A stretch of 64,000 nt of DNA, taken from the NCBI GenBank assembly GCA_009996615.1, contig JAACZU010000014.1:23941-87940 (forward strand), read 5' to 3'. The DNA is from Rhodanobacteraceae bacterium. GTDB taxonomy: Bacteria > Pseudomonadota > Gammaproteobacteria > Xanthomonadales > Rhodanobacteraceae. The translations under genes were made by a program, and so were the position numbers. Shown here piece after piece: positions 19,369-46,610 of this stretch (position 1 is its first letter; each line of letters begins with the position of its first letter). Under the pieces are notes generated by a model, which was not told the origin of the DNA, did no database searches, and saw only the letters and a list, made by a program, of their open reading frames with translations.

Positions 19369-19870
19369 GGGGTCTTCGCTTTCAAGCCCTCCCCCTCGAG
19401 GGGAGGGTTGGGTGGGGATGGTGCTGTTCCGGTGTTGCTTCGGCGTCGCTTGCGCGTCACTGTCTACTCGAACACGGACCCGCGTCCCTGCGTTTTCCAC
19501 TCGCATCCCTGCGAGCGGGTTACTTTCTCTTGCTTGCCCAACGCACAGTCGTGTCGGCACAAGCATCCATCCTTGGGGCGCCTGCCGCTCGACATCCATG
19601 TCTCGCCCCAGCCGCCTGAGAGCGGCTTCGACCCCAACAGCGGCGCCCTCCGGGCATCCTGCCCTGCGGGTGCGTGGTCGCCGGCCGGGGTTCGCCGACG
19701 GCACGTCCATGTGCCGACGGCGAACGCGCGCGCATCGTGCGCGCGCCCCTGCGGGCCTTGTCGTCCGGCGCCCACCGCCGCTGAACGGGGACCCGGGTAA
19801 AGCGGCGCGCTCCTGCGCGCAGAGGCAGATGCAACAGCAGGTGCAAAGCGAGGCAAGCACGCCTGCATGA
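19369..19870. other. Repeat-rich gap between heme A and heme O synthase genes
   Basis: About 500 bp without a convincing gene. It holds a CCCTCCCCCTCGAGGGGAGGG element followed by TTGGGTGGGGATGG (19384-19421), then CGCTCGCATCCCTGCGAGCG followed by GGTTACTTTCTCTTGC (about 19498-19536), which looks like one arm of another dispersed repeat. Further inverted words (GCCGACGGC, GCGCGCGCATCGTGCGCGCGC) lie at 19690-19750. Open frames across it are Arg/Pro/Ala-rich and have no protein character. Confidence 0.6.
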
Positions 19871-32990: not shown

Positions 32991-33284
32991 ACGGACGCTC
33001 CTTGAGATGGGCAACGATTTCTTGCCGGGTTCATAACGAATTGGTAGCGATCTTAGCCACAAGTTCGCCGAACCTTCCATCGTGCGCCGCCGCAAATCGC
33101 GGCAAAGCGCGCCACGACGCGGGCTGCACATGGCTCGGACCCTACGATTCCGTATGGCCGCGACGGGCGAACGGGCTGATTGCCCCGCCGGCTGACAGCA
33201 GCGTGCGCCGCGGTTACGCTGCGCCGGCGTGCCGGCGGCGCGTCCCCGGCATCGATGGCTGCAACCATTCCGGCGGAGGGGAAC

Positions 33285-33680
33285 ATGGGTTTCGACCGCA
33301 AGTACCTGATCTGGGCCCTGGGCTATGTCGCGTTCGGCATGTGCGTGGGCATCTACATGGCCGCCTCGAAGAACCACGGCCAGCTCGTCGCGCACGCGCA
33401 CATCCTGCTGGTCGGCTTCGTGGTGTCGTTCGTCTACGCCATCATCCACAAGCTGTGGCTGCCGCAGCCCGGCAGGGCGCTGGCGACGGCGCAGTTCGTG
33501 CTGCACCAGGCCGCCGCGCTCGTCATGTTCGCCGGCTTGCTGCTGCTCTACGGCGAGGTGCTGCCCGAGCCGACGCTGGCGCCGATGCTCGGCATCGCCT
33601 CGATCGGCGTGCTGGTGGCGGCGCTGCTGATGAGCTTCATGGTGCTGCGCGCGGGGCGCGGCCAGATGGTCGCGCGCTGA
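33285..33680 (+). CDS. Four-helix membrane protein with His-rich second helix
   Basis: A 131-residue protein with a strong GGAGGGG site before the ATG. Four hydrophobic segments are visible: YLIWALGYVAFGMCVGIYM, AHAHILLVGFVVSFVYAIIH, FVLHQAAALVMFAGLLLLYG and MLGIASIGVLVAALLMSFMV. Helix 2 carries HAH and a later His, and helix 3 one His. This recalls the heme-ligating helices of heme-copper oxidase subunit I and NorB-like proteins, but no full copper site exists. I do not recognise a characterised family. A small heme-binding protein or oxidase-related subunit is possible. It is divergent from the FadL gene. Confidence 0.6.
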   Translation: MGFDRKYLIWALGYVAFGMCVGIYMAASKNHGQLVAHAHILLVGFVVSFVYAIIHKLWLPQPGRALATAQFVLHQAAALVMFAGLLLLYGEVLPEPTLAPMLGIASIGVLVAALLMSFMVLRAGRGQMVAR

Positions 33681-33688
33681 GCGCGCTC

Positions 33689-33768
33689 TTAGCCCTCCCC
33701 TTCAAGGGGCGAGCCGGGATTCCGATCGCTGCCGCAGCGATCGCCGGCGAGCGGCCGCACGGGGAATG
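33689..33768. repeat. Composite CCCTCCCC / GATCGC hairpin repeat (intergenic copy)
   Basis: AGCCCTCCCCTTCAAGGGG, then GAGCCGGG, then the hairpin CGATCGCTGCCGCAGCGATCG, then CCGGCGAGCGGCCGCAC. The same order of parts occurs inside fdsA at 37437-37515, so these are two copies of one composite element. Confidence 0.8.
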
Positions 33769-33789
33769 AGCGCGCGGCGCGGCGCAAGC

Positions 33790-33960
33790 GGTGCACTTGC
33801 GGCCCTTTTCCACGGACGCGCCCCACGAGAAGCATCGCGCCTGCCGGCGCTCCCACCGGGTTGCCGCAAGCTCGACCTCGACCGCGATGCGCGGCCCCTG
33901 TGGGAGCGGCGGAAGCCGCGATGCTCGTCCGGTGCCAGCGCTCCCACCGGGACAGCCATG
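33790..33960. repeat. GTGGGAGCGGCGGAAGCCGCGATG family repeats
   Basis: Several related units (AAGCATCGCGCCTGCCGGCG-CTCCCAC and GTGGGAGCGGCGGAAGCCGC) stand in opposite orientations in the gap before the fds operon end. They belong to the same REP-like family as 50430-50545 and 55394-55416. Confidence 0.7.
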
Positions 33961-33963
33961 CGC

Positions 33964-34197
33964 TCACCCCGGCGGCGCGGACTCGCTCGCCGCCAGCTGC
34001 GCGATCGCCTCGCGCGCGAGTTCGCTGAGGCCAGCGCCGCCGGCGTCGAGATGGGCGAAGATCTGCCGGCGCATGCGCGGCGCCCAGTAGCGGCGCAGGT
34101 GCGTGGCGATCGCGTCGACCGCGGATGCGCGATCGGGCTCGGCGGCGAAGAACGCGGCGATGTCGTTGGCCATCTGGACCAGGTGTTCGATGCTCAC
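33964..34197 (-). CDS. fdsD: Formate dehydrogenase subunit delta
   Basis: A 77-residue protein, IEHLVQMANDIAAFFAAEPD.. with a C-terminal helix-rich region, matching the small FdsD subunit that ends soluble NAD-linked formate dehydrogenase operons. Its role is accessory and it is thought to help assembly or stability of the molybdenum enzyme. The GTG start at 34197 overlaps the fdhD stop (GTGA), so the two are translationally coupled. The longer open frame upstream is antisense-type noise inside fdhD. Confidence 0.85.
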   Translation of the reverse strand: MSIEHLVQMANDIAAFFAAEPDRASAVDAIATHLRRYWAPRMRRQIFAHLDAGGAGLSELAREAIAQLAASESAPPG

Positions 34198-35036
34198 GGG
34201 ACAGGCTCCGCTGCGGTCGCGACGATGCGCTGCGGCCCGCTGTAGACGACATGACCTTCGCGCCGCGCGAAGCCGACCAGGGTCAGGCCGGTCGTCTCGG
34301 CCAGCTGGATCGCCAGCGCGGTCGGCGCCGAGATCGCGGCGAGCAGGCCGACGCCGAGCGTGGCGGCCTTCTGCACCATCTCGTAGCTGGCGCGGCTGGT
34401 GACGACGAGGAAGCCGCCGTGCAGGTCCGCGCCGGCGCGCGCGAGCGCGCCGATCAGCTTGTCGAGCGCGTTGTGGCGGCCGACGTCCTCGCGCACCAGC
34501 ACGAGTTCGCCGTCGACGCGCGCCCACGCGGCCGCGTGCGTGGCGCCGGTGGCGAGGTTCAGCGGCTGGCGTTCGTGCAGCTCGGCAAGCGCGCGCTGCA
34601 GCGCCGCAGGCGTGATGCGCGGGCCGTCGCCGACCGGCGGCGGCTGGCGCAGCGCGTCCTCGAGCACCTGCGCGCCGCACAGGCCGCAGCCGCTGCGGCC
34701 GGTCAGGTTGCGCCGGCGCGCATCGAGCGCGGCCGCGCGCGCGGCCGGCACGCGCAGGCGCAGCTCGATGCCTTCGAGCAGGTCGTGGCGGCTGACGCCC
34801 TCGAGCTCGCGCGCCTGCCCGATCACCGCCTCGCTGAGCGAGAAGCCGAGCGCAAAGTCGTCCAGGTCGCACGGCGTGGCCATCATCACGACGTGCGGCG
34901 CGTCGTTGTAGAGCAGCGCGACCGGCACTTCCTCGGCGACGCGGTCGGTCGCCACCTCGACCGCGCCGTGGCGCCAGCGGCGCACCTCGCGCAGCGCGTA
35001 GCCGCGCGCGCCCGTCTCAGTGATCGGCGGGCGCAT
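34194..35036 (-). CDS. fdhD: FdhD sulfurtransferase for formate dehydrogenase (FdsC)
   Basis: A 280-residue accessory protein that transfers sulfur from a cysteine desulfurase to the molybdenum cofactor before insertion into FdsA. The key CxxC is in GRSGCGLCGAQVLED. Other family landmarks are EEVPVALLYNDAPHVVMMAT, LVREDVGRHNALDKLIG and GGFLVVTSRASYEMVQKAA. The start at 35036 (MRPPITETG) overlaps the end of fdsA by 20 bp. A 12-codon upstream extension would be Arg-rich and unlike the family. Confidence 0.95.
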   Translation of the reverse strand: MRPPITETGARGYALREVRRWRHGAVEVATDRVAEEVPVALLYNDAPHVVMMATPCDLDDFALGFSLSEAVIGQARELEGVSRHDLLEGIELRLRVPAARAAALDARRRNLTGRSGCGLCGAQVLEDALRQPPPVGDGPRITPAALQRALAELHERQPLNLATGATHAAAWARVDGELVLVREDVGRHNALDKLIGALARAGADLHGGFLVVTSRASYEMVQKAATLGVGLLAAISAPTALAIQLAETTGLTLVGFARREGHVVYSGPQRIVATAAEPVP

Positions 35037-38000
35037 GCGCCGCCTCCGGCAGCAGCGCCTGCTGCTGCGCATCGAGCGCGTGGAAGCGCTGCTGCCACGC
35101 CGACGGCTGCTGCACGCGCGTGACCTCGACCGCGGTGACCTTGTACTCGGGGCAGTTGGTGGCCCAGTCGGAGTTGTCGGTCGTGATCACGTTCGCGCCG
35201 GAGCCGGGGAAGTGGAACGTCGTGTAGACCACGCCCGGCTGCATGCGCTCGCTGAGCTGCGCGCGCAGCACGGTTTCGCCGGCGCGACTGGCAATGCCGA
35301 CCCAGTCGCCGTCGGCAATGCCGCGGTCCTCGGCGTCCTGCGGATGGATCTCGAGGCGGTCCTCGGCGTGCCAGGCGACGTTGCCGGTGCGGCGCGTCTG
35401 TGCACCGACGTTGTACTGGCTGAGGATGCGCCCGGTGGTCAGGATCAGCGGGTACTTCGCGTTGACCTTCTCGCGCGTGGGCACGTACTCGGTGACGAGG
35501 AAGCGGCCCTGCCCGCGCACGAACGTGCCCACGTGCATGGTCGGCGTGCCGTCCGGCGCCTGCGCGTTGCACGGCCACTGGATGCTGCCGAGTTCGTCCA
35601 GGTGCGCGTAGCTGATGCCGGCGAAGGTCGGCGTCAGGCGCGCGATCTCGTCCATGATCTGCGACGCATGCGCGTAGTGCATCGGGTAGCCGAGCGCGTT
35701 GGCGAGGAGCTGCGTCACCTGCCAGTCGGCGTAGCCGCTGCGCGGCGCCATCACCGCGCGCACGCGCGAGACGCGCCGCTCGGCATTGGTGAACGTGCCG
35801 TCCTTTTCGAGGAAGGTGGAGCCCGGCAGGAAAACGTGCGCGAACTTGGCCGTCTCGTTGAGGAACAGGTCCTGCACGACCACGCATTCCATCGCGCTCA
35901 GCGCGGCGGTCACGTGCTGCGTGTTCGGGTCCGACTGCGCGATGTCCTCGCCTTCGATGTAGAGCGCCTTGAAGCTGCCGTCGAGCGCCGCTTCGAACAT
36001 GTTCGGGATGCGCAGGCCCGGCTCGGCCTGCAGCGGCACGCCCCAGGCCTGCTCGAAGCTCGCGCGCACGGCGGCGTCGGCGACGTGTCGGTAGCCGCTG
36101 AACTCGTGCGGGAACGAGCCCATGTCGCACGAGCCCTGCACGTTGTTCTGCCCGCGCAGCGGATTGACGCCGACGCCCTCGCGGCCGAGGTTGCCGGTCG
36201 CCATCGCGAGGTTCGCGATCGCGATCACCGCGGTCGAGCCCTGCGCGTGCTCGGTCACGCCGAGGCCGTAGTAGATCGCCGCATTGCCACCGGTCGCGTA
36301 CAACCGCGCGGCCGCGCGCACGTCGCCGGCCGGCACGCCGGTGACCGCCTCCATCGCCTCGGGCGAGTTGCGCTCCTCGGCCACGAACGCGCGCCAGCGC
36401 TCGAACGGCGCGCGCTCGCAGCGCGCCGCGACGAATGCCTCGTCGACCAGTCCTTCGGTCACGATCACGTGCGCGAGCGCGTTCAGCAGCGCGACGTTGG
36501 TGCCGGGGCGCAGCTTCAGGTGCACGTCCGCGGCGACGTGCGGCGTGCGCACGAGGTCGATGCGGCGCGGATCGGCGACGATCAGCCGCGCGCCTTGGCG
36601 CAGGCGCCGCTTCATCTGCGAGGCGAACACCGGGTGCGCGTCGGTCGGGTTCGCGCCGATCACGAAGATCACGTCGGCCTGCATGACCGAATCGAAGCTC
36701 TGCGTGCCGGCCGACTCGCCGAGCGTGTTCTTCAGGCCGTAGCCGGTCGGCGAATGGCACACGCGCGCGCAGGTGTCGACGTTGTTGTTGCCGAACGCGG
36801 CGCGCACGAGCTTCTGCACGAGGTAGGTTTCCTCGTTCGTGCAGCGCGAGGAGGTGATGCCGCCGACCGCGTCGCGGCCGTACTTCGCCTGGATGCGCCT
36901 GAACTCGGACGCGGCGTGCGCGATCGCCTCATCCCACGACACCTCGCGCCACGGCTCGGAGATCGTCGCGCGCACCATCGGCTTGAGGATGCGGTCCGGA
37001 TGCGTCGCATAGCCGGTCGCGAAGCGGCCCTTCACGCACGAGTGGCCGTGGTTCGCGCGGCCGTCCTTGTCCGGCACCATCCTGACCAGCGTGTCGCCCT
37101 GCATCTCGGCGCGGAACGAGCAGCCGACGCCGCAGTAGGCGCAGGTCGTGACGACGCTGCGCGCGGCCGGGCCGAGCGCGAGCAGCGACTTCTCGCTCAG
37201 CGCGGTGGTCGGGCAGGCCTGCACGCAGGCGCCACAGGAGACGCATTCGGAATCGAGGAACGACTCGTCCTGGCTCGCGACCATGCGCGAGGCGAAGCCG
37301 CGGCCCTCGATCGTCAGCGCCAGCGTGCCCTGCTGCTCGTCGCAGGCGCGCACGCAGCGCGAGCAGACGATGCAGGCGGCCGGGTCGAACGTGAAATACG
37401 GGTTCGACGCATCCAGCGGCCGGAACAGCGGATTCAAGCCCTCCCCTTCAAGGGGGTGAGCCGGGCTTTCGATCGCGGCCGTCGGGCCGCGATCGCCGGC
37501 GAACGGCCGCACAGGGATGTGCGGACCGGACTCGCGAGCGCAGGATGCGCGAGGGGTGGGTGGGGATGGTGTCGGGCTCGCGTCGCGCTTCAATGCCGGG
37601 TAGACATGATTCGCGCCGTCGAAGCCATAGCGGACTTCCTCCACGCCGACCAGCGCCGCCATCTGCGCCATCTCGGTCTGCGCGGCGACGCCGGGGTTGG
37701 CCGCGTCGAGCGGGTAGTCGGACAGGTACAGCTCCATCACGCCGCGGCGCAGCCGGCCGAGCGTATCGCCCTGCGTGGTCACCTGCATGCCGGGCGCGAC
37801 CGGGGTCGTGCACGAGGCCGGGTAGCCCTTCATGCCCTCGACCTGCACCAGGCACAGCCGGCACGAGCCGAACGCATCGAGCAGCTCGGTCGCGCACAGC
37901 TTCGGGATCGTGATGCCGGCCTCGGCCGCCGCGCGCAACACCGAGGTACCGGCCGGCACCGTCACCGCGCGGCCGTCGATCGTCAGCGTGACGGTTTCGC

Positions 38001-38049
38001 TGGATGGCGACTTCGGCGTGCCCAGATCGGCTTCGGCGAGTGAACGCAT
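35017..38049 (-). CDS. fdsA: NAD-dependent formate dehydrogenase, molybdenum alpha subunit (with repeat insertion)
   Basis: A 1,010-residue catalytic subunit that oxidises formate to CO2 at a bis-MGD molybdenum site. Residues ~18-100 form a 2Fe-2S domain (CATELLDAFGSCRLCLVQVE). 4Fe-4S sites are ACIVCSRCVRACDE and CVSCGACVQACP. The Mo domain begins TTCAYCGVGCSF and has the metal-ligand Cys in CARVCHSPTGYGL. GGAGG precedes the ATG at 38049. Between KRDAS and NPYFTFDPA lie ~57 extra residues (PTPSPPTPRAS..HPLEGEGL) encoded by a dispersed intergenic-type repeat; without it the protein would have the usual family length. The insertion sits in a linker between iron-sulfur domains, so the enzyme may still work. 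Confidence 0.95.
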   Translation of the reverse strand: MRSLAEADLGTPKSPSSETVTLTIDGRAVTVPAGTSVLRAAAEAGITIPKLCATELLDAFGSCRLCLVQVEGMKGYPASCTTPVAPGMQVTTQGDTLGRLRRGVMELYLSDYPLDAANPGVAAQTEMAQMAALVGVEEVRYGFDGANHVYPALKRDASPTPSPPTPRASCARESGPHIPVRPFAGDRGPTAAIESPAHPLEGEGLNPLFRPLDASNPYFTFDPAACIVCSRCVRACDEQQGTLALTIEGRGFASRMVASQDESFLDSECVSCGACVQACPTTALSEKSLLALGPAARSVVTTCAYCGVGCSFRAEMQGDTLVRMVPDKDGRANHGHSCVKGRFATGYATHPDRILKPMVRATISEPWREVSWDEAIAHAASEFRRIQAKYGRDAVGGITSSRCTNEETYLVQKLVRAAFGNNNVDTCARVCHSPTGYGLKNTLGESAGTQSFDSVMQADVIFVIGANPTDAHPVFASQMKRRLRQGARLIVADPRRIDLVRTPHVAADVHLKLRPGTNVALLNALAHVIVTEGLVDEAFVAARCERAPFERWRAFVAEERNSPEAMEAVTGVPAGDVRAAARLYATGGNAAIYYGLGVTEHAQGSTAVIAIANLAMATGNLGREGVGVNPLRGQNNVQGSCDMGSFPHEFSGYRHVADAAVRASFEQAWGVPLQAEPGLRIPNMFEAALDGSFKALYIEGEDIAQSDPNTQHVTAALSAMECVVVQDLFLNETAKFAHVFLPGSTFLEKDGTFTNAERRVSRVRAVMAPRSGYADWQVTQLLANALGYPMHYAHASQIMDEIARLTPTFAGISYAHLDELGSIQWPCNAQAPDGTPTMHVGTFVRGQGRFLVTEYVPTREKVNAKYPLILTTGRILSQYNVGAQTRRTGNVAWHAEDRLEIHPQDAEDRGIADGDWVGIASRAGETVLRAQLSERMQPGVVYTTFHFPGSGANVITTDNSDWATNCPEYKVTAVEVTRVQQPSAWQQRFHALDAQQQALLPEAAHAPADH
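37434..37570. repeat. Composite dispersed repeat inserted in frame within fdsA
   Basis: On the plus strand: AAGCCCTCCCCTTCAAGGGG, GAGCCGGG, the hairpin CGATCGCGGCCG/GGGCCGCGATCG, CCGGCGAACGGCCGCACAGG, and GGTGGGTGGGGATGG at the far end. The first four parts match the intergenic copy at 33689-33768 in the same order. The GTGGGGATGG end matches 19384-19421. The encoded residues are not conserved in FdsA. Confidence 0.85.
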
Positions 38050-38358
38050 ATCAACCTCCGACGAAGCGGCTCAAGCCCCTCCCCCCTCGGGAGAGGGGTT
38101 GGGGAGAGGGTCCGGGCGAGTGCGAGGCCTCAAGCCTGCGCGAGTCCCACCGTCGTTGCGCGCAGACGGTGGGACTCGCCGCTGCGCGGCTGCGGCCCAC
38201 CCTACTTAATATCGAGCGCATGTCAGCCTCCGGCGCACCGCGCGCGACGATGATGGCCGTCATTCCGGCGTAGGCCGGAATCCAGCTTTTCAACACCAAC
38301 GACAGGAACTGGATCCCGGCCTTCGCCGGGATGACGGCAATCCAAGGTGCGTTCACTG
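38050..38358. repeat. Cluster of three repeat families in the fdsB-fdsA gap
   Basis: This 309-bp gap inside the operon holds CCCCTCCCCCCTCGGGAGAGGGG (38071-38122), GAGTCCCACCGTC..GACGGTGGGACTC (38131-38203), and GTCATTCCGGCGTAGGCCGG with CTGGATCCCGGCC..GGGATGACGG (38258-38338). fdsB and fdsA normally lie almost adjacent. No gene is present; the last 15 bases carry the fdsA ribosome-binding site. Confidence 0.8.
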
Positions 38359-39978
38359 TCATGCCCGCCCCCCGAAGTCTTCCGGAAAATGCGCCAGCGC
38401 GCTGCGCACCGGGTCCGGCGTGAGGCCGCCGAGCGCGCACAGCGAGCCGAAGCGCATCGTCTCGCACAGGTCCTCGAGCAGCGCGAAATTCTTCTCGCGC
38501 TCGATGCCGGCACGGATGCGCTCGAGCACCTCGACGCCGCGCGTCGAGCCGATCCGGCACGGCGTGCACTTGCCGCACGATTCGGCCGCGCAGAACTCCA
38601 TCGCGTAGCGCGCCTGCTCGGCCATGTCGACCGTGTCGTCGAACGCGACGACGCCGCCGTGGCCGAGCATCGCGCCGATCGCGGCGAACGCCTCGTAGTC
38701 GAGCACGGTGTCGAACTGCGAGGCCGGCAGGTACGCGCCGAGCGGGCCACCAACCTGCACCGCGCGCAGCGGCCGGCCGGACAGCGAGCCGCCGCCATAG
38801 TCGTACAGCAGTTCCCGCAGCGTCACGCCGAATGCGAGCTCGACGAGGCCGGTGCGCTTCAAGTTGCCGGCGAGCTGGATCGGCAGCGTGCCGCGCGAAC
38901 GGCCGGTGCCGTAGTCGCGGTAGAACGCGGCACCGCGCTCGAGGATGAGCGGCACCGAGGCGAGCGAGATCACGTTGTTGACCACGGTCGGGCGGCCGAA
39001 CAGGCCCTTCAGCGCCGGCAGCGGCGGCTTGAAACGGACCTGGCCGCGCTTGCCTTCGAGGCTGTCGAGCAGCGCGGTTTCCTCGCCGCAGATGTAGGCG
39101 CCGGCGCCGAGGCGCACTTCCAGCTCGAAGCGCTTGCCGCTGCCGCCGATGTCGGCGCCGAGCCAGCCGGCCGCGTAAGCGGCCGCGATCGCCGCGTCGA
39201 GCGCGCGCCGCGCATGCGGGTATTCGCTGCGCAGGTAGATGTAACCCTGCGTCGCACCGACCGCGAGGCCGGCGATCGCCATGCCCTCGACCAGGCATAG
39301 CGGATCGCCCTCCATCAGCATGCGGTCGGAGAACGTGCCGGAGTCGCCCTCGTCGGCGTTGCAGACGATGTATTTGGACGGCCGGGATTCGGGATTGGAG
39401 ATTGGGGATTGGGAAGAGCGGGCCGCCTCGAGGACCGTCTTCCACTTGATGCCGGTCGGGAACGCGGCGCCGCCGCGGCCGCGCAGGCCGGAGTCGATGA
39501 CCGTCTGCACGATCGCGGCCGGCGCCATGTCGAGTGCCTTGCGCAGGCCGCGGAAGCCGCCGTGCGCGACGTAGTCGGCGACGCTGAGCGGATCGGTCAC
39601 GCCAACGCGCGCGAAGCACAGGCGCTGCTGGCGCTTGAACCAGTCCAGTTCCTCGACCGCGCCGAGGCGCAGCGCGTGCGCGGCCCCCTCTCCCGCAACG
39701 GGAGAGGTGAAGACGCCGGCGTCGAACAGGCTCGGCACGTCGGCGGCGCGCACGGGTCCGTACGCCGTCCGAATCCCCAATCTCGAATCCCCAATCCCGG
39801 CTTCAACCTCCACCAATGGCTCAAGCCACAGCATCCCGCGCGAGCCGGTGCGCACGAGTTCGATCGCGATGCCGCGCCGCTGCGCCTCGGCCGCCAGCGC
39901 CTGCGCGGTGCGCTCGGCACCGAGCGCGAGCGCGCTGGCGTCGCACGAGACGCACACGCGAAGCGGAGCGGCACTCAT
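38359..39978 (-). CDS. fdsB: NAD-dependent formate dehydrogenase beta subunit, FMN/NAD-binding (with repeat insertions)
   Basis: A 539-residue NuoF-like subunit passing electrons from FdsA to NAD+. An N-terminal ferredoxin-like region (VCVSCDASALALGAE) is followed by the FMN/NADH domain (SGLRGRGGAAFPTGIKW, YIVCNADEGDSGTFSDR, AYICGEETALLDSLEG) and the C-terminal 4Fe-4S motif AAESCGKCTPCRIGSTRG. GGAGG lies nine bases before the ATG, which overlaps the fdsG stop as ATGA. Three short non-conserved inserts are encoded by dispersed repeats: AGIGDSRLGIR, FTSPVAGEGA and SSQSPISNPESRPS. Apart from these, all cofactor motifs are intact. Confidence 0.95.
   Translation of the reverse strand: MSAAPLRVCVSCDASALALGAERTAQALAAEAQRRGIAIELVRTGSRGMLWLEPLVEVEAGIGDSRLGIRTAYGPVRAADVPSLFDAGVFTSPVAGEGAAHALRLGAVEELDWFKRQQRLCFARVGVTDPLSVADYVAHGGFRGLRKALDMAPAAIVQTVIDSGLRGRGGAAFPTGIKWKTVLEAARSSQSPISNPESRPSKYIVCNADEGDSGTFSDRMLMEGDPLCLVEGMAIAGLAVGATQGYIYLRSEYPHARRALDAAIAAAYAAGWLGADIGGSGKRFELEVRLGAGAYICGEETALLDSLEGKRGQVRFKPPLPALKGLFGRPTVVNNVISLASVPLILERGAAFYRDYGTGRSRGTLPIQLAGNLKRTGLVELAFGVTLRELLYDYGGGSLSGRPLRAVQVGGPLGAYLPASQFDTVLDYEAFAAIGAMLGHGGVVAFDDTVDMAEQARYAMEFCAAESCGKCTPCRIGSTRGVEVLERIRAGIEREKNFALLEDLCETMRFGSLCALGGLTPDPVRSALAHFPEDFGGRA
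39380..39415. repeat. GGATTCGGGATTGGAGATTGGGGATT repeat inside fdsB
   Basis: A tandem-like GGATT(C/G)GGGATTGG unit of the same family as 16151-16174 and 22447-22480, read in frame as SQSPISNPESRP directly before the conserved KYIVCNADEGDSG. Confidence 0.85.
39684..39708. repeat. CCCTCTCCC..GGGAGAGG hairpin inside fdsB
   Basis: CCCCTCTCCCGCAACGGGAG is an inverted repeat of the family seen at 38071-38122 and 50331-50380. It encodes the SPVAGEGAA segment of FdsB. Confidence 0.75.
39769..39801. repeat. Second GGATT-family repeat inside fdsB
   Basis: CCGAATCCCCAATCTCGAAT and the following CCCCAATCCC form a double unit of the GGATTCGGGATT family, encoding AGIGDSRLGIR between LVEVE and AYGPVRA. 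Confidence 0.85.
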
Positions 39979-40499
39979 GCGCCCGCCTCCTCGCGCAAGC
40001 GGCCGACCAGCGCGTCGAACGCGTCCGCGGTCACGTTCGCATGCAGCTCATCGGCATCGAGCAGCAGCGAAGGCCCGCAGCCGCAGTTGCCCAGGCAATA
40101 GACCGGCTCCAGCGTGAGCGCGCCGTCGGCGGTGGTCTGGTGGAAATCGATGCCGAGCGTGCGCCTGGCATGCGCCTCGAGCGCGCGCGCGCCGCGTGCC
40201 TGGCAGGCCTCGGCGCGGCACAGGCGCAACACGTGCCGGCCCGGCGGCGTGCTGCGGAAATGGTGGTAGAAGCTGACCACGCCGTGCACCTCGGCGCGCG
40301 TGAGGTTGAGCGCCTGCGCGATCACCGGCAGCGCCGCCGGCGGCACATGGCCAAGCGCATCCTGCACCGCATGCAGCAGCGGCAGCAGTGCGCCGGGCCG
40401 CGCGGCATGCTCGGCGATCGCGCGCTGCACCGCCTGCGCCTGATCGGCCGGCAAGGCCGGCGACGGCGCGGCGCCGGAGCGCGCAGGCAATGGCTTCAT
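39975..40499 (-). CDS. fdsG: NAD-dependent formate dehydrogenase gamma subunit (NuoE-like)
   Basis: A 174-residue 2Fe-2S subunit and first gene of the fds operon. It shows the NuoE fold signatures LLPLLHAVQDALGHVPPAAL, GVVSFYHHF and the four cluster cysteines: LCRAEACQARGARAL contributes two, and YCLGNCGCGPSLLLD the others. It relays electrons within the FdsGBA complex. GAGGAA lies before the ATG at 40499; upstream in-frame codons belong to a repeat region. The stop overlaps fdsB. Confidence 0.93.
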   Translation of the reverse strand: MKPLPARSGAAPSPALPADQAQAVQRAIAEHAARPGALLPLLHAVQDALGHVPPAALPVIAQALNLTRAEVHGVVSFYHHFRSTPPGRHVLRLCRAEACQARGARALEAHARRTLGIDFHQTTADGALTLEPVYCLGNCGCGPSLLLDADELHANVTADAFDALVGRLREEAGA

Positions 40500-40601
40500 G
40501 GCAGTTTCCTCGGGCCCGTGTTTGCTCGATGCCGTTCGCCGCCCGCGCCACCTTGCCTGCCGGCCACGGTACGCGCGGCCAGTCCGGCCTCGGCGGCTCT
40601 T

Positions 40602-40628
40602 CACGCCCTCCCCCTCAAGGGGAGGGTC
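40602..40628. repeat. CCCTCCCCCTCAAGGGGAGGG repeat upstream of fdsG
   Basis: A short inverted repeat of the family at 19384, 37437, 43070 and 55470, in the divergent gap between fdsG and the methyltransferase gene. Confidence 0.75.
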
Positions 40629-40760
40629 GGATGCGTTGGCGCGAAAACCAATCCGCACCCCAGCGCTTACAATAGTCTTTTCACGCCGCGCCTGCGCAAG
40701 GCGGTCGCGCGGGCGCTCCGTCGCGGCGACTCACCCTGCGCCGCCGCACCGGAACGCTAC

Positions 40761-46430: not shown

Positions 46431-46610
46431 GAGTCATCCCGTGCAGTACAGGGATGTACGTCGACACGGGATCCAGCCTTTGACCCGATGCGCTCATCCC
46501 GTGCGGTACAGGGACGTACGACGACACGGGATCCAGCCTTTGATCCGATGCGCTCATCCCGTGCAGCACAGGACGTACGACGACACGGGATCCAGCGCCT
46601 CACCCGATCA
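46431..46610. repeat. Three tandem 60-bp units with internal hairpin
   Basis: CATCCCGTGC recurs at 46435, 46495 and 46555, an exact 60-bp period. Each unit holds CATCCCGTG..CACGGGATCC, a stem able to enclose GCAGTACAGGGATGTACG. The copies differ at only a few positions. No reading frame is apparent. Confidence 0.88.

Follow-up and report, generated by a model that had tools for sequence, protein, structure and literature searches.

Rickettsia palindromic elements (RPEs) were reportedly described by Ogata and co-workers in 2000 and 2002. In the available sections of two later papers, RPEs are palindromic sequences of 100-150 bp present in many copies, some of them in frame in unrelated proteins, and they are also found at the same place in orthologues (PMC10969869, PMC3767692); in R. 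conorii, nearly half of the copies are coding (PMC10969869). GTAG- and CGTC-tagged REPs, according to the available text of PMC3733652, lie mainly between genes and in some cases within ORFs; their hosts include RNA helicases and DNA repair genes, and recB carries different REPs at roughly the same position in two Xanthomonas. Additionally, MITEs such as ERIC, which are short and non-autonomous, are able to form in-frame fusions with genes (PMC10969869, available part). In-frame palindromic repeats are, on the accessible portions of these papers, already established in Rickettsia (PMC3767692, PMC10969869) and, as tagged REPs, in several bacteria (PMC3733652). Formate dehydrogenase is not named among the intragenic REP hosts in the available part of PMC3733652, and the titles and abstract openings searched, with most subscription papers outside the coverage, named no such insert in formate dehydrogenase.

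In this study, we analyzed a 64,000-nucleotide stretch of DNA (the window) carrying fdsA, the gene for the alpha subunit of NAD-dependent formate dehydrogenase, and a dispersed element that lies inside it. We conclude, with a probability of roughly 0.87, that a multi-copy palindromic repeat, apparently non-autonomous, entered fdsA in frame and is now read as a loop. Similar to RPEs as described in the sections cited, the element is 137-140 bp long, has at least 19 copies that reach 100 bp in length, forms a foldable palindrome (z = -4.36) and has in-frame copies in unrelated genes, here those for FdsA and HrpA. In contrast, a minority of its copies is coding, against nearly half in R. conorii (PMC10969869, available part), and the host, judged from FdsA, is a gammaproteobacterium near Rhodanobacteraceae; the likeness to RPEs drawn here is one of description. 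The element shares with REPs a palindromic build, a mainly intergenic location, some copies in ORFs and an RNA helicase among the hosts, but it measures 137-140 bp against 20-40 bp for REPs (PMC3733652, available part), and by eye its 18-copy consensus has no GTAG or CGTC tag at the ends. Like a MITE, it is a short, apparently non-autonomous repeat fused in frame with a gene (PMC10969869, available part), whereas its ends, AGCCCTCCCC and ACACCATCCCC, resemble inverted repeats only roughly, and inspection of the flanks of its copies by eye showed no target-site duplication. Outside Rickettsiales, the locus offers a clear case in which repeat DNA is predicted to have become protein sequence.

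An in-frame repeat in the FdsA linker

The protein matches the TIGR01591 profile with 927.9 bits (cut-off 666.25) and contains the Fer2_4, Fer4, Molybdop_Fe4S4 and Molybdopterin domains. The extra codons and the other features of the region are collected in Table 1. Compared with a linker of 22 residues, the FdsA linker has an excess of 47 residues, or 141 nt, against 137 nt for the element, and the extra residues are almost exactly explained by the 137-bp element sitting there. The original prediction had placed the element at 37434..37570 with about 57 extra residues; the location was right, the exact extent is 137 bp at 37436-37572, and the number of residues had been overestimated by comparison with the 47 codons at 37435-37575.

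Table 1. Positions of the coding frames and repeat copies discussed in the text
Feature	Position	Strand	Remarks
fdsA, NAD-dependent formate dehydrogenase alpha subunit	35017..38049	minus	single open frame, 1010 aa
47 extra codons of fdsA	37435..37575	minus	residues 159-205; linker between N-terminal region and 4Fe-4S domain
complete copy of the ~137-140 bp dispersed repeat, inside fdsA	37436..37572	minus	137 bp; aligned with other copies
truncated copy of the element (L023)	33691..33765	minus	84% over query 74-154; 10 bp past the end of ORF 33180-33680
fdsB	38359..39978	minus	539 aa; three repeat-like insertions, from an alignment of 83 rows
GGATTCGGGATTGG-type repeat inside fdsB	39380..39423		read as SQSPISNPESR; extra residues relative to relatives
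CCCTCTCCC-GCAAC-GGGAGAGG palindrome (CTCTCCC) inside fdsB	39684..39709		read as TSPVAGEGAA; extra residues relative to relatives
second GGATTCGGGATTGG-type repeat inside fdsB	39768..39801		inverted relative to the 39380 copy; match at C14:63708-63741 minus; extra residues

In 9wxb_B, a solved FdsA and the first of the PDB homologues listed, the insert falls between residues 152 and 158, where 5 residues separate the two parts aligned to our FdsA. The AlphaFold model has a mean pLDDT of 67.5, with values near 28 in the insert and below 50 for most of residues 137-287, and around these residues it is too weak for judging the insert loop. The repeat probably reads as a 47-residue loop without function of its own; both the translation of the insert and the neutrality of the loop are presumed.

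To compare the linker across relatives, we used 110 FdsA loci in total (L054 and L059 partial): 30 from a kinship search that matched 33 of 100 genomes, our own included, and the best 80 from a search of named genomes. Linker length was counted from the residue that follows RYG up to the four residues that precede NPYF or TPYF and was obtained for 101 of the 110 loci; L110, L122 and L126, for which the pattern gave 60, have 10 by eye. Our FdsA has 69 residues here, three genomes with the same genus label (G006, G013, G014) have 22, as does Dyella, another relative (G015) has 8, and most Pseudomonas and Burkholderia-like rows have 10. The insert peptide is encoded at one of the 110 loci scanned, our own, so the 47 residues are conserved at none of the others, in line with the earlier view that they have no known FdsA counterpart. 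An ancient FdsA domain is rejected on the same grounds, namely absence from the other loci scanned and a 22-residue linker in same-genus relatives, and these 22-residue linkers look like the state before insertion.

Copies, anatomy and fold of the element

In our genome (3.91 Mb, 40 contigs), a 161-bp query gave at least 72 matches at E up to 10 and no fewer than 19 places where the match reaches 100 bp, with 91-100% identity, the query's place included; the copy count is a lower bound, with 40 of the 322 first-look candidates scored. Together with the 24 of 26 long-element places that appear non-coding, this upholds the view of a dispersed, mostly non-coding repeat that has come to lie within the open frame of a central redox enzyme. 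The intergenic sequence at 33689-33768, proposed as the same element, is indeed related, but it is a truncated, 84%-identical copy at 33691-33765; better full-length copies occur elsewhere in the genome, and one of them (L002) has 97% identity to the fdsA copy. The parts named in the original prediction are present in fdsA and in this intergenic copy. A chance likeness is rejected by the count of CCCTCCCCTTCAAGGGG: the window has 11 occurrences when up to 3 mismatches are allowed, and shuffles average 0.10. As this pattern is almost its own reverse complement, one place may count twice.

The full element measures 137-140 bp in an alignment of 18 copies, with the consensus ACACCATCCCCACCCAACCCCTCGCG...CGATCGCTGCCCGACGGCAGCGATCG...CCCCCTTGAAGGGGAGGGCT in the coding orientation of fdsA. 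Its ends by themselves form a shorter repeat, AGCCCTCCCCTTCAAGGGG...GGTTGGGTGGGGATGGTGTT, and its middle is rich in hairpins. With up to 1 mismatch, the pattern of this short palindrome gave 160 forward and 155 reverse matches, and the reversed control gave none in either direction; since the pattern is nearly self-complementary, the short palindrome occupies about 160 places in all. In two long copies (L012 and L013), the flank and the left palindrome are present twice. This doubling hints that a short repeat may receive a copy of the middle part, within it or next to it, as if by template switching. Further short palindromes, of the CCCTCCCC...AAGGGG type, lie in the window at 19387, 40606, 43071 and 55477.

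The element strand folds better than each of 200 shuffles. In a 19-copy alignment (16 of our own and 3 from G006), from which L074 was excluded after being taken in the wrong orientation in one alignment, 5 of 32 consensus pairs are kept with both sides changed, and the RNAalifold covariation term is near zero (-0.06). A known RNA family is rejected, as Rfam at gathering thresholds gave no match over 33500-40700. The collection of sequenced plasmids searched gave no match to the element at E 1e-3. At least 7 of the 100 genomes examined, our own included, contain a match; the negatives among relatives are weak, with at most 8 candidates scored per genome.

Coding copies in other proteins of the genome

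With a codon-based score, two of the 26 long-element places, fdsA and L007, have a frame that is open across the element and coding-like on both sides. The other 24 lack a coding-like frame across it; four of the 26 (L013, L019, L020, L021) are at contig ends, where one flank is very short or missing, and L027-L030 stood outside the test. L007 lies in the RNA helicase HrpA (TIGR01967, 1495.7 bits; cut-off 722.75), where the element has the same orientation and frame as in fdsA, and 42 of 47 residues are identical to the FdsA insert. Each of the two coding copies measures 137 nt, but this length modulo 3 is found in 6 of the 18 copies, which leaves a filtering of frames by copy length unsupported.

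The two nearly identical peptides, in the same frame and both open, would also be expected if the insert were an adaptive, exapted segment retained for its peptide, such as a novel FdsA loop for docking or regulation. However, DNA copies without a coding frame are equally similar (97% for L002), so the likeness follows from recent copying, and two frames per strand are open in most of the 18 copies, which makes the common frame weak evidence. FdsA and HrpA are, moreover, unrelated host proteins, and relatives carry unrelated sequence at the same spot. We therefore regard exaptation as very unlikely and favor a loop derived from a repeat that was not kept for its peptide.

The HrpA copy also bears on a possible assembly artefact, in which a short-read assembler would have joined a repeat copy into fdsA. 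The element does trouble assembly, as contigs C6, C9 and C30 end in copies of it. Nevertheless, the frame is exactly preserved across the insert, no other aligned copy has the combination of variants found in it (best match 97%), and HrpA independently shows the same in-frame element. Such a misjoin is thus extremely improbable, and the insertion in fdsA is taken as genuine.

The short palindrome was examined at 55 sites, taken from the first listed places (contigs C1 through part of C4) and from the window, and three frames were flagged (L193, L201 and L202), of which we take that of L202 (218 aa, low score) as spurious. The test missed the known fdsA site and the second palindrome of L201, so genic short-palindrome sites are undercounted. 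L201 encodes HrpB (TIGR01970, 1017.9 bits), which carries an inverted pair of short palindromes in frame. L193 encodes a large helicase with a short palindrome in frame, matched below their cut-offs by two ATP-dependent helicase models and presumably Lhr-like.

Repeats of other types lie in frame inside the neighboring fdsB, whose product has the Complex1_51K and NADH_4Fe-4S domains and matches TIGR01959 with 423.4 bits, under the cut-off of 558.65. The alignment that reveals its three insertions comprises our own sequence, our own locus and 81 relatives, some of them partial. A 66-bp query from the repeat at 39380..39423 had at least 56 matches in our genome at E up to 1, itself included, a lower bound with 40 of 98 candidates scored.

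The FdsA core and the A4 cluster motif

Compared with 46 named relatives, our FdsA departs from 14 of 451 near-invariant positions, while the median over all 47 rows is 5 and the maximum 21; two rows have more than 14 departures and two others exactly 14. Twelve of the 14 fall within residues 112-137, and the other two are M38L and V256M. The remainder thus fits a normal FdsA, as the original prediction held, and the protein otherwise looks sound.

In the available part of the RcFDH structure paper, His117, Cys121, Cys124 and Cys130 are the ligands of A4, a [4Fe-4S] cluster situated at the dimer interface, and the authors left the purpose of this cluster to future studies (PMC7171172). In our reading, the His and three Cys that relatives have at FdsA residues 112-125 correspond to the A4 ligand positions, given the common H-x3-C-x2-C-x5-C spacing. 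This motif is absent from our FdsA, which has SDYPLDAANPGVAAQTEM instead (residues 112-128, 37666-37716). The motif is also missing in G007, G010, G013, G014, G015, L136 and L138; in G066 and G076 it is altered. Of 108 rows, 17 were flagged by the motif test, among them five in which the motif is visible (L047, L048, L092, L121, L122) and two for which the wrong stretch was displayed (L098, L120). Among the relatives with a missing or altered motif, linker repeats were seen only in G010, and G046 has repeats with the motif kept. Loss of the motif and insertion into the linker are thus not tied. FdsA proteins that naturally lack A4 offer a test of the purpose of the dimer-interface cluster.

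The lost A4 ligands, the 14 departures against a median of 5 and the insertions in FdsB as well could be read as signs that fdsA is decaying and tolerates the repeat as a gene that no longer matters. Yet all 1010 codons are open, and FdsA retains 437 of the 451 near-invariant positions. A single module accounts for 12 of the 14 changes, and relatives that have no insert lack this module too. FdsB, with 539 aa, is likewise open. We consider decay highly unlikely and set the pseudogene reading aside on the strength of the 437 kept positions; an intact enzyme with a tolerated loop is the reading we retain.

Recurrent use of the same linkers in relatives

In two relatives, G046 and G010, this FdsA linker contains copies of the short palindromic repeat, which has 5 and 10 further matches, respectively, in their own genomes. 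In the FdsA core tree, these two group together (93/81), whereas our FdsA groups with G014, G007, G013 and G015 (100/98), apart from them; G010 bears the genus label of our genome yet branches apart on this tree. A third relative, G044, has a different repeat in the linker, with four further matches in its genome, and the linker inserts of L083 and L086 are similar. At least two unrelated repeat families are found at one FdsA loop. PNP-type insertions are also present at the FdsB site in G046 and G010. The case marks permissive insertion points in NAD-dependent formate dehydrogenase.

The corresponding HrpA stretch was read in 20 of 29 rows from 16 genomes, four of which contribute a second locus. 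Its length ranges between 39 and 124 residues, with 121 in ours. Its DNA contains other palindromes in G006 and a GGGAACGGGGAATGG-type repeat in G017; judged from the peptide, G004, G007 and G009 also appear to carry repeats, and HrpB linkers appear to vary like those of HrpA. Collectively, the linker loops of FdsA, FdsB and HrpA look like permissive, re-used landing sites. For this bacterial group, we see an even chance that the linkers of FdsA, FdsB, HrpA and HrpB are standing landing sites, repeatedly entered by several selfish repeat families, so that non-coding repeats would be a steady source of new protein loops, with the FdsA site lying close behind the [4Fe-4S] module A4 that has been erased in several of these lineages.

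Proposed origin and spread

We infer the following order of events. A REP/RPE-like repeat of 137-140 bp would have inserted into the ancestral fdsA linker of about 22 residues in the lineage of this species. The gene would have stayed open for two reasons: the added length is divisible by three and contains no stop codon, and a linker joining two domains tolerates a change in length. The young repeat would survive mainly outside genes and occasionally inside genes where length is free. Genic places are far rarer than under random placement (binomial, with an assumed coding share of 88%; 2/23 and 2/55), and this scarcity fits removal by selection.

The element may have spread by transposition or by copying between repeats through recombination or template switching. 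No empty site was seen within the same species, and no mobilizing enzyme was found for the element; the genome contains two Y1_Tnp matches (L261 and L262). An ORF of 243 codons for a RAYT-like Y1 transposase lies at L261:1429-2157, flanked by inverted copies of ACGGGGTCAGGTTCACTT. These flanking repeats differ from the element, and RAYT as its mobilizer is unsupported for L261.

Other direct repeats were observed in the window. Its left edge (1-2075) contains tandem-like direct repeats spaced 363-369 bp apart, and a 38-bp direct repeat is present at 46452-46608 in three copies about 60 bp apart.
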